DNA of 64,000 nt, from NCBI RefSeq assembly GCF_001552595.1, contig NZ_BCRM01000016.1, positions 62,001-126,000 of the forward strand, given 5' to 3'. Below the pieces are notes generated by a model. The model was not told the DNA's origin, made no database searches, and worked only from the letters and a program-made list of their open reading frames with translations. Origin of the DNA: Rhodococcus erythropolis NBRC 15567 (GTDB taxonomy: Bacteria > Actinomycetota > Actinomycetes > Mycobacteriales > Mycobacteriaceae). Below, in pieces: positions 55,856 to 58,691 of this stretch (position 1 is its first letter; every line of letters starts with the position of its first letter). A program made the position numbers and the translations under genes.

Positions 55856-56595
55856 GATGCGTGCAACCCGCATTCTGTCTTGGAGGCACCGGCCCAACGA
55901 CCGCTACGCGGATCGCTGCCGGGGGCTGGCTTGCTGGTGCAGGGTGCGCAGCCGATGGACGGATAGCCCTCGTCGACAAGAGGATTGACGAGGATGGAAT
56001 TGGTGTCGATGTAGTTCTGCATCTCCTCGTCCGACCACGGAGCGATCGGGTTGATCTTCACGAGGCCGAAGGCGTCGTCGAAGGAGATCAAGGGAGCGTT
56101 GGCGCGGGTGGGCGCTTCGACGCGGCGGATGCCGGTCACCCACGCGCTGTAGCCGGACAGTGTCTGCTTGAGGGGTGCGACCTTGCGCAATGCGCAGCAG
56201 CGGTTGGGATCACGGGCGAACAGATCCTTGCCCTCGGCGACATCCTGCTCGGCGACGCTTGCCAGCGCGCGTGCATTGATGACGTTGACGCCGTAGACCT
56301 GCTCGACCGCGTCACGCGTGCCGATGGTCTCGGGGAAGTGGTAGCCGGTGTCGAGGAAGAGTACGTCGACGCCCGGATGAACTTGTGCGGCAAGGTGAAC
56401 CAGCACTCCATCCTGCATGTTCGACGCAACAATGTAACCGCTACGATCCCCCGTTGCTGCGCTCGCCCCGTCACCGAACGTGTCCTCGGTCCACTGCAAC
56501 AGTTCCTGTGCGCTGGCTCCGTCGAGTTCTACGGCACCGCGCTCGGCGATGGACCGAAGCTCGTCGGCGGTTGCTCGCGAAATGTCCACTGTCAT
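55852..56595 (-). CDS. cysH: Adenylyl-sulfate (APS) reductase
   Basis: 247 residues from ATG 56595 (overlaps the sir stop by 4 bp). Reduces APS to sulfite with thioredoxin. Fe-S ligand cysteines are visible as RCCALRK (near residue 131) and CAPCTSKP (near 216); KTECGLH near the C-terminus carries the catalytic Cys. The double Cys pair marks the APS-using class, distinct from Fe-S-free PAPS reductases. This agrees with the missing APS kinase. Confidence 0.94.
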   Translation of the reverse strand: MTVDISRATADELRSIAERGAVELDGASAQELLQWTEDTFGDGASAATGDRSGYIVASNMQDGVLVHLAAQVHPGVDVLFLDTGYHFPETIGTRDAVEQVYGVNVINARALASVAEQDVAEGKDLFARDPNRCCALRKVAPLKQTLSGYSAWVTGIRRVEAPTRANAPLISFDDAFGLVKINPIAPWSDEEMQNYIDTNSILVNPLVDEGYPSIGCAPCTSKPAPGSDPRSGRWAGASKTECGLHAS

Positions 56596-58322
56596 CGCAA
56601 ATCTCCTTCGTCTGCGCGCACTGCCCATTCGGCGAACCGTTCACCTTCGTTGCGGTTCTTGACGAACTGACGTACGACGCGGTCGATGTAGTCACCCATC
56701 TCGACGCTGGTGACCTTGTGCTGGCGCAGCTTGCGTCCGAAGGCGCTGTCGAATCCGAGGCTGCCTCCCAGGTGAACCTGGAAACCCTCGACTTGATTCC
56801 CCTCACCGTCGTCGACGAGCTGGCCCTTGAAGCCGATGTCGGCGATCTGCGAGCGAGCGCAGGAGTTGGGGCAACCGTTGATGTTGATGGTGATCGGCAC
56901 GTCGAGCTGGCTGTTGATGTCGGCGAGACGCTGTTCGAGTTCGGGCACGAGCACCTGCGAACGCTTGCGTGTCTCGGCGAACGAGAGCTTGCAGAACTCG
57001 ATGCCGGAGCAGGCCATCAGGTTCTTGCGCCAGTGCGACGGTCGGGCGGGAAGGCCCAGCGCGTCGAGATCGGCGATGAGCGGCTCGAGGGTCTCGTCGG
57101 CGACGTCGAGGATGATCAGCTTCTGGTACGGCGTGAAGCGGATCCGGTCGCTGCCGGCTTTCTCCGCGGCGTCGGCGACCTGAGCCAGGATGTCTCCCGA
57201 GACGCGGCCGGCGATCGGAGCGAAGCCGACTGCGTTGTGGCCGTTGCGGGTCTTCTGGATGCCGACGTGGTCGATCGGGCGCTTGGGCTTCTCCGGCGCG
57301 GGGCCGTCGATGAGCGGGCGCTCGAGGTACTCCGTCTCGAGAACCTCGCGGAACTTTTCGATGCCCCAGTCCTTGATGAGGAACTTGAGCCTTGCCTTCG
57401 CGCGCAGACGGCGGTAGCCGTAGTCACGGAAGATCGAGACGACACCCTCCCAGACATCGGGGACCTCGTCGAGCGGAATCCAGGCGCCGACGCGCTGCGC
57501 CAGCATCGGGTTGGTGGACAGTCCGCCGCCGACCCAGAGGTCGAGGCCCGGGCCGTGTTCGGGGTGGTTCACGCCGATGAAGGCGATGTCGTTGATCTCG
57601 TGAACGACGTCCTGCTGACCGGAGATGGCGGTCTTGAACTTGCGCGGCAGGTTGGAGTACTTGGGGTCGCCGATGTAGCGGCGCACGATCTCGTCGATCG
57701 CCGGGGTGGGATCGAGGACCTCGTCGAGCGATTCGCCGGCCAGGGGAGAACCGAGGACGACGCGGGGGCAGTCACCGCACGCTTCGGTGGTCTTGAGTCC
57801 GACGGCTTCGAGCCGCTTCCAGATCTCCGGAACGTTCTCGACCTCGATCCAGTGGAACTGGACGTTTTCGCGGTCGGACAGGTCGGCGGTGTTCCGGCCG
57901 AATTCCTTCGAGATGCCGGCGATGGTGCGCAGCTGCTCGACGTTGAGAGCGCCGGCGTCGCAACGCACGCGCATCATGAAGTATTTGGCCTCGAGCAGGT
58001 CGATGTTCTCGTCGCCGGTGAAGGTGCCGTCGTAGCCTTCTTCGCGCTGGGTGTAGAGACCCCACCAGCGGAAGCGGCCGCGAAGGTCGCCCTTGTCGAT
58101 GCTGTCGAAGCCCTGCTTGGAGTAGATGTTCTCGATGCGGGCCCGAACGTTGAGCGGGTTGTCGTCCTTCTTGGCCTGCTCGTTGGCGTTGAGCGGCTCG
58201 CGGTAACCGAGGGCCCACTGACCTTCGGCGCGACGCTTGGCGGGACGTGCAGCGCGTGCGGGCCGGGCTTCGGCAGGTGCTGCCGAATCGGCGGGTGTGG
58301 CGGCGTCGGTGGTCGACGTCAT
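56592..58322 (-). CDS. sir: Ferredoxin-type assimilatory sulfite reductase
   Basis: 576 residues from ATG 58322 with AGGAG upstream. Reduces sulfite to sulfide with six electrons using siroheme and a 4Fe-4S cluster. Cluster ligands: CSGIEFC (C-x5-C) and CPNSC (C-x3-C). Two sulfite/nitrite reductase repeats, HWIEVENVPEIWKRL and HWRKNLMACSG, are clear. The N-terminal 35 residues are an Ala/Pro/Arg-rich tail. The M. tuberculosis relative is annotated NirA but acts on sulfite. First protein gene of the sir-cysHDN-chelatase operon; a cysteine-rich leader peptide lies 263 bp upstream. Confidence 0.95.
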   Translation of the reverse strand: MTSTTDAATPADSAAPAEARPARAARPAKRRAEGQWALGYREPLNANEQAKKDDNPLNVRARIENIYSKQGFDSIDKGDLRGRFRWWGLYTQREEGYDGTFTGDENIDLLEAKYFMMRVRCDAGALNVEQLRTIAGISKEFGRNTADLSDRENVQFHWIEVENVPEIWKRLEAVGLKTTEACGDCPRVVLGSPLAGESLDEVLDPTPAIDEIVRRYIGDPKYSNLPRKFKTAISGQQDVVHEINDIAFIGVNHPEHGPGLDLWVGGGLSTNPMLAQRVGAWIPLDEVPDVWEGVVSIFRDYGYRRLRAKARLKFLIKDWGIEKFREVLETEYLERPLIDGPAPEKPKRPIDHVGIQKTRNGHNAVGFAPIAGRVSGDILAQVADAAEKAGSDRIRFTPYQKLIILDVADETLEPLIADLDALGLPARPSHWRKNLMACSGIEFCKLSFAETRKRSQVLVPELEQRLADINSQLDVPITININGCPNSCARSQIADIGFKGQLVDDGEGNQVEGFQVHLGGSLGFDSAFGRKLRQHKVTSVEMGDYIDRVVRQFVKNRNEGERFAEWAVRADEGDLR

Positions 58323-58585
58323 CGATGAACTCCTGGATCTGGGCGGTTGATCGGCACGCGGCACGCACTATCGACGAACTGTGGCGGTGTCTGATCGGGA
58401 CGCACCGGTCCGTGTCGGAAATCGAGGGGGCTGTCCTCGGTCTCGGAAAGCTCGCGGCCGGCAGGTGTGCTCACGAAAACGAACAGCTGGAGAAGCTGTA
58501 TCTCTGAAACGACGTGTCTCTGCAGAGAGTTGTTTCGGTGAAGCAGATGGAGATGAGCGGGAAAGGCTGGAAGATCAGTGAAAGA
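58323..58585 (-). other. Leader RNA between the cysteine-rich peptide and sir
   Basis: 263 bp of transcribed leader, as judged from the operon direction. The short palindrome TCTCTGCAGAGA lies near 58519-58530, and the stretch is C/T-rich on the minus strand compared with the genes. No second ORF with a good start was found. It would hold the mRNA structure that the leader peptide acts on. Confidence 0.4.
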
Positions 58586-58678
58586 TCAACAGCTACACAG
58601 GTGCAGACACGACGAGCTGCACACACGCTTGAAGTCGACATGGCGACGCGCCACAAGTCGCACTCCGAGTCCGGTCAT
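58586..58678 (-). CDS. Cysteine-rich leader peptide upstream of sir-cysHDN
   Basis: A 30-residue frame from ATG 58678 to the TGA at 58588-58586. The sequence begins MTGLGVRLVARRHVDFKR and ends VCSSSCLHLCSC: four of the last 11 residues are Cys, and the last sense codon is Cys. The ARRHVD segment matches short actinobacterial peptides upstream of sulfur-metabolism genes that databases list as putative leader peptides. CACAAT (58691-58686) ends 7 nt before the ATG and there is no Shine-Dalgarno, so the mRNA is probably leaderless. Expected role: stalling at Cys codons when cysteine is scarce lets sir-cysHDN be expressed. Confidence 0.82.
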   Translation of the reverse strand: MTGLGVRLVARRHVDFKRVCSSSCLHLCSC

Positions 58679-58685
58679 GCGGACC

Positions 58686-58691
58686 ATTGTG
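58686..58691 (-). promoter_or_regulatory. -10 element for the sir leader peptide
   Basis: CACAAT on the minus strand, 7 nt before the ATG of the leader peptide. TTGACG lies just upstream (58700-58695) but too near to serve as its -35. Confidence 0.4.

Follow-up and report, generated by a model that had tools for sequence, protein, structure and literature searches.

The stretch of DNA analysed here (64,000 nucleotides of a Rhodococcus erythropolis NBRC 15567 contig, referred to below as the window) carries on its minus strand a sulfate-reduction operon and, directly upstream of it, a short open reading frame (ORF) with a Cys-rich C-terminal end. The Pfam domains found in the genes 3' of this ORF (NIR_SIR, PAPS_reduct twice, GTP_EFTU and CbiX) identify what we take to be sir, cysH, cysD, cysN and a chelatase-like gene, in agreement with the sir-cysHDN operon that an earlier note on this DNA had placed downstream of the frame. 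The sir gene starts with an ATG at 58322 (minus strand), leaving a spacing of 263 nt between the leader and sir. The promoter element, the leader and the start of the operon are located as follows.

58686 to 58691, minus strand: -10 hexamer CACAAT; with the TGG in front of it, it resembles an extended -10
58586 to 58678, minus strand: leader ORF of 30 codons plus stop, predicted to be leaderless, encoding an Ms4527A-type Cys leader peptide
58330 to 58335, minus strand: CAGGAG, the Shine-Dalgarno sequence of sir, identified from the sequence
56592 to 58322, minus strand: sir, sulfite/nitrite reductase (NIR_SIR), the first gene of the operon, identified by its Pfam domain

Read from 58678 to 58586, the minus-strand frame encodes the peptide MTGLGVRLVARRHVDFKRVCSSSCLHLCSC followed by a stop codon, with Cys at four of its final 11 residues, and the hexamer CACAAT (58691-58686) lies exactly 7 nt ahead of its ATG. 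The frame and its peptide, the Cys count at the C-terminal end and the hexamer spacing are all as the earlier note had read them. Since only 7 nt separate the -10 element from the ATG, the 5' end of the transcript is predicted to fall at the ATG itself, so that the mRNA would begin at the leader start codon and the ORF would be leaderless, without a ribosome-binding site of its own. A further in-frame ATG at 58687, three codons upstream of the leader ATG, overlaps the -10 hexamer and is unlikely to be transcribed. When both strands of the window were searched for ORFs of 15-60 codons with a -10-like hexamer 6-8 nt before the start and four or more Cys among the final 12 residues, the leader was the sole ORF recovered, and the same combination of length, hexamer and Cys content yielded no ORF in any of 30 first-order Markov sequences. 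Across the 74 loci examined below, one of four hexamers (CACAAT, CAGAAT, CATAAT or CACACT) is found 6-7 nt ahead of an in-frame ATG or GTG in every case (74/74), a uniform spacing in a count that was not blind, since the start was picked with the hexamer in view.

The novelty claimed for this leader in the earlier note does not hold, as NCBIfam already contains the family to which it corresponds. The profile NF042936 ("Ms4527A family Cys-rich leader peptide") matches the window leader over 20 of 21 positions with 41.3 bits (E 7.8e-11), narrowly below the curated cut-off of 45 bits, and this shortfall leaves the leader without a name under the NF042936 model. The cut-off is passed in 13 of the 28 genomes of the genus, each with Sir downstream. 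The window leader shows the conserved VARRHVD core followed by a Cys-rich C terminus that defines the Ms4527A family, and it lies upstream of an adjoining sulfite/nitrite reductase gene, as family members do. By synteny and core, as opposed to a certified profile match, the window leader is, judging from the sequence, an ortholog of the Ms4527A leader, a name that presumably denotes Msmeg_4527, given the shared number. It has in common with the Ms4527A/nirA leader the peptide core, the Cys-rich C terminus, the predicted leaderless start and the adjoining sulfite/nitrite reductase gene, a comparison made through the NCBIfam profile and not by setting the letters of the published Msmeg_4527 leader peptide side by side. 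It differs in its score below the cut-off, in the 263 nt to sir, a distance that is 102-124 nt in the genus g29 (24 of 26 loci), and, for the window clade, in that none of the sequences was found to cover the sir ribosome-binding site with a local helix. Genus g29 is taken for Mycobacterium because its members score highest on NF042936, which is named after an M. smegmatis gene.

According to Shell et al. 2015 (PMC4633059), leaderless small ORFs precede cysA2/Msmeg_5788 and nirA/Msmeg_4527 in mycobacteria. PMC9031893 attributes to Canestrari et al. 2020 the finding that such ORFs mediate attenuation dependent on cysteine in M. smegmatis, and PMC9094748 and PMC13236596 cite that study in the same sense. 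The cysA2/Msmeg_5788 leader of Shell et al. 2015 is likewise a leaderless Cys-codon leader of a sulfur operon, but the operon and the peptide are different from those in the window. In the literature searched, which comprised titles and abstract openings and included few subscription papers, no Rhodococcus study of the leader was found. The leader family is already described in mycobacteria, and the window leader is thus an unannotated example of it, not a new system.

A second NCBIfam profile, NF042934 (cis_reg_atten), shares the RRHVD core with the window leader, which at 18.1 bits does not reach its cut-off of 27 bits. At E<=0.1 this profile returned seven matches in the genome from which the window derives, three of them above the cut-off, with the sir leader as the weakest. 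The genes 3' of the other six encode an SBP_bac_5 solute-binding protein, a BPD_transp_1 permease, a DUF4395 protein followed by a rhodanese, a Flavin_Reduct protein, an SDF symporter and, in one case, a product without Pfam match. The sir leader is therefore probably one of a set, as in mycobacteria. One of these leaders (L030; G000:C1, about 961890-961946, minus strand) is a leaderless-looking Cys leader, VQTRHELMLTRRRAVDLCRLGGCCCTCC, with TAAACT 7 nt before its GTG; lying ahead of the DUF4395 and rhodanese genes, it is likely, on sequence grounds, the counterpart of the mycobacterial cysA2 leader. L028, L029, L031, L032 and L033 are further RRHVD-like leader peptides of the same genome, ahead of the SBP_bac_5, BPD_transp_1, Pfam-unmatched, flavin reductase and SDF symporter genes, and the start of L029 appears by eye to be led by a Shine-Dalgarno sequence and hence not to be leaderless.

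The distribution of the leader was assessed by searching whole genomes with NF042936. At E<=1e-3, matches were obtained in 27 of 28 genomes of the genus (the single miss being only 74% complete), in 126 of 151 genomes of the family and in 231 of 298 genomes of the order; some of the weaker matches at the family and order levels are probably paralogous leaders. In the class, 47 of 246 genomes had a match at E<=1e-5, and these searches gave no match in 14 control genomes. The 74 loci examined comprise all 27 of the genus and 47 others taken from a longer list of matches. A DNA-pattern scan, whose records come from Rhodococcus, Nocardia and one Antrihabitans and in which records very near the window may be missing, contributed a further 44 of its 49 records, the remaining five ending before sir is reached. 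This amounts to 118 leader-to-sir sequences, 104 of them distinct, some being duplicated across the two collections. A Sir homologue lies directly 3' of the leader in 117 of the 118 loci, L080 being the exception, and the first Cys, as RVC or RIC, is found in 71 of 71 distinct peptides. Conservation of the core, including this first Cys, is partly built into the sample, given that loci were collected either by NF042936 or by the DNA pattern of its 5' part. The conservation check that the earlier note had proposed for close relatives came out in its favour: the 27 loci of the genus retain the frame, three or more Cys codons and the stop.

Patterns of substitution were evaluated in 84 distinct cores. 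For the codons of L-V-A-R-R-H-V-D, the proportion of synonymous changes (pS) is 0.529 and that of nonsynonymous changes (pN) 0.028, a ratio of 0.053, and pN/pS rises to 0.136 for the next five codons and to 0.481 for the Cys tract. The low pN of the core is partly built in, because loci were gathered by the core, but the synonymous change shows that there was time enough for divergence, and the LVARRHVD core is, as far as these alignments go, kept at the protein level and nearly invariant. Codon choice within the tract is position-specific: UGU is used at core position 13 in 83 of 83 sequences with Cys there (one of the 84 has Pro), Cys at core position 9 is encoded by UGC in 54 and by UGU in 30, and Ser at core position 10 is AGC in 65 of 68, all of these counts coming from related and hence not independent sequences. 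The window background, computed on crudely called genes, is 41 UGU among 199 Cys codons. The Cys tract thus seems to be under an additional constraint at the nucleotide level, which could reflect slow UGU decoding or RNA pairing. Peptide identity, conservation and gene context are direct observations. As to the alternative of a chance ORF without function, the ORF is short and scores below the curated cut-off, as a chance frame might, but conservation, synteny, promoter spacing and selection all oppose that reading, which can be given next to no credence and is refuted for practical purposes.

We regard the window leader as very probably an ortholog, in Rhodococcus, of the Ms4527A cysteine leader of mycobacteria, gating the sir operon by cysteine supply. 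Transcription would begin at the leader ATG, as the position of the -10 element suggests, and a ribosome would load at the 5' end of the mRNA without a Shine-Dalgarno sequence, translating first the conserved core LVARRHVDFKRV and next the Cys-rich C-terminal part. A shortage of cysteinyl-tRNA would slow the ribosome at the Cys codons; given plentiful cysteine, it would reach the stop. The position of the ribosome would then set the folding or exposure of the 263 nt of RNA between leader and sir, and with it whether the sir operon is expressed. Homology lends good support to the sensor half of this scheme, made up of a leader predicted to be leaderless, its Cys codons and the sulfur operon, and ribosome stalling and a cysteine response would be expected in Rhodococcus by analogy with published work on its relatives. 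The proposal of the earlier note, a uORF whose Cys codons tie sulfide production to cysteine, stands in so far as it agrees with the attenuation published for M. smegmatis. Its dismissal of a DNA-binding repressor is not supported by these data, and an additional repressor is conceivable. The Cys codons are nonetheless not the whole story, given that nine of 71 distinct peptides contain only two Cys and that LVARRHVD is near-invariant. Eight of these nine peptides come from the 21 Nocardia loci and the ninth from L061 and L062; two-Cys leaders of this kind (RVCSASC... in Nocardia, among L082-L129, and those of L061/L062) would not be favoured under a pure codon-count sensor.

The output step in Rhodococcus, be it masking, Rho-dependent termination or another RNA switch, may differ from that in mycobacteria. 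The Canestrari study is reported to have found that ribosome stalling leaves the ribosome-binding site unmasked. Such translational attenuation, in which a stalled ribosome would keep an RNA structure from masking the sir ribosome-binding site, is a plausible output for the window leader, if somewhat short of an even chance. The evidence for it comes from g29, where 16 of 26 loci (1.75 expected from shuffles) have the Shine-Dalgarno sequence covered by a helix with six or more Watson-Crick pairs. In all 16 of these loci a second helix, again with six or more Watson-Crick pairs, lies upstream, close to the 5' arm of the first (4.13 expected). The arms overlap by eye, so that the masking helix and the upstream helix would be mutually exclusive. 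Outside g29, however, the Shine-Dalgarno helix is not enriched, with none in the 10 sequences of the window clade (0.46 expected) and five in the 68 others (5.13 expected), as assessed for helices without gaps whose 5' arm lies no more than 45 nt away, that is, for local and not long-range masking. In g29, base pairing between the Cys tract and this upstream arm was dropped as a candidate, since its frequency (9 of 16, versus 5.99 expected) is not clearly above chance. When the 74 loci were folded with a ribosome parked at the first Cys, the last Cys or the stop, no consistent change in Shine-Dalgarno accessibility was observed: with the ribosome in either the first-Cys or the stop position, accessibility went up by more than 0.1 in 10 of 74 loci and down in 11 of 74. 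Five group alignments (10, 10, 12, 6 and 4 rows) likewise gave no consistent Shine-Dalgarno switch with the ribosome on the leader.

Several RNA elements were recognised between the leader and sir, listed here from the leader stop towards sir.

58584 to 58590, minus strand: box GUUGAUC, overlapping the leader stop codon and complementary to GAUCAAC at 58352-58346
58526 to 58585, minus strand: C-rich, G-poor stretch right after the leader stop (24 C and 5 G in 60 nt), like a Rho-loading site by composition only
58483 to 58499, minus strand: small hairpin ACAGCU-ucucc-AGCUGU followed by TCGTTTTCGT, a weak terminator-like site
58423 to 58439, minus strand: CAGCCC-loop hairpin CGAGG-ACAGCCC-CCUCG, covarying across genera
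58346 to 58352, minus strand: box GAUCAAC, lying 10 nt before the Shine-Dalgarno sequence of sir and possibly pairing with the box at the stop codon

In the first 40 nt past the leader stop, C outnumbers G in 103 of the 104 distinct loci; the window has 17 C versus 3 G, and the means for the window clade are 0.43 for C and 0.07 for G. A skew as strong as that after the leader stop was found in none of 55 stretches following gene ends and in none of 54 preceding gene starts in the window (crude gene calls), and only 0.1% of the window's intergenic 40-mers are as skewed. Rho-dependent transcription termination is a reasonable rival in view of this C-rich stretch and of the local masking helix missing from Rhodococcus, and the same sensor would then drive another output: a ribosome completing the leader would bare the C-rich loading site, while a ribosome slowed on the Cys codons would cover or fold it. 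A precedent for such a combination is provided by the M. tuberculosis Mbox, described in PMC12810186 together with a uORF and Rho-dependent termination. C-richness, however, is no proof of Rho action and may mark just an unstructured spacer; the stretch is also present in g29, where the masking helix exists; and when ranked inside its own 3-kb locus it falls in the top 10% in 54 of 74 loci but in the top 5% in only 35 of 74. A ribosome stalled at the first Cys codon, 33 nt ahead of the stop, would moreover keep the C-rich stretch exposed, an effect of the wrong sign unless RNA structure comes into play. We therefore hold Rho-dependent termination to be a tentative reading, possible rather than probable.

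The hairpin at 58499-58483 with its U-rich tail raises the alternative of classical attenuation by an intrinsic terminator. It constitutes one terminator-like site on the minus strand, against 0.5 such sites expected in shuffles, and its pairs appear by eye to be kept with changed bases in the clade, but the U-run is absent from some of the sister species. Its predicted probability, furthermore, is at least 0.84 in eight of 10 sequences at every ribosome position tried, and it falls clearly only with the ribosome at the stop, in L001 (to 0.44) and L026 (to 0.59), a response of the wrong sign. The M. tuberculosis ilvB1 uORF (PMC13236596) resembles the window leader in that expression hinges on a ribosome occupying regulatory codons in a short ORF, but it is described there with an intrinsic terminator, for which folding gives no support at the window leader. 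An intrinsic terminator is hence quite improbable as the output step.

The CAGCCC element is found in 74 of the 104 distinct loci and tends to occupy the loop of a hairpin, the stems of which differ between genera. Among 44 distinct 23-mers carrying this element, the mean pair run is 3.07, compared with 1.30 (sd 0.21, max 2.14) in 1,000 permutations of the 3' arms, with 11 of the 44 lacking any pair in rigid register. A freer search recovered a stem of at least five pairs around CAGC in 54 of 104 loci, versus 23.5 expected (max 34 in 100 shuffles). An Rfam search of the window gave no match at the gathering score, including at the CAGCCC hairpin. A possible pairing between the Cys tract and the CAGCCC loop was considered and dropped, ACAGC being present in only 31 of 66 distinct loci. 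For the GUUGAUC and GAUCAAC boxes, all seven pairs (G-U allowed) are kept in 10 of 10 clade sequences, which contain three versions of the 3' box. Several GAUC-centred boxes occur within 58590-58346 (minus strand), at the leader stop, a few nt past it and near sir, making alternative pairings possible. A second uORF starting with GTG at 58474 (51 codons, with a stop that overlaps the sir ATG) was also rejected: its frame is kept in four of 10 clade sequences, the window included, one other sequence being without the start and five reading or ending differently.

Returning to the cysteine-gated leader, the near-invariant LVARRHVDxKRVC is kept even in two-Cys leaders, which suggests that the peptide, and not the codons alone, may be sensed. 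We put forward, with clear reservations, a joint scheme in which an order-wide sensor (leaderless ORF, VARRHVD core and position-specific UGU) would be coupled to an output that has been rewired, with masking in g29 versus a C-rich, probably Rho-dependent mode, or a hairpin step, in Rhodococcus and its relatives, and in which the nascent chain, through LVARRHVDxKRVC, may play a part within the ribosome tunnel. The new part lies in the contrast in RNA architecture between genera. The analysis extends the published mycobacterial cysteine control to Rhodococcus, where the leader scores just under the annotation cut-off, and it renders two questions testable: why VARRHVD is so strictly kept as protein, and whether a single sensor is coupled to different RNA outputs in related genera.
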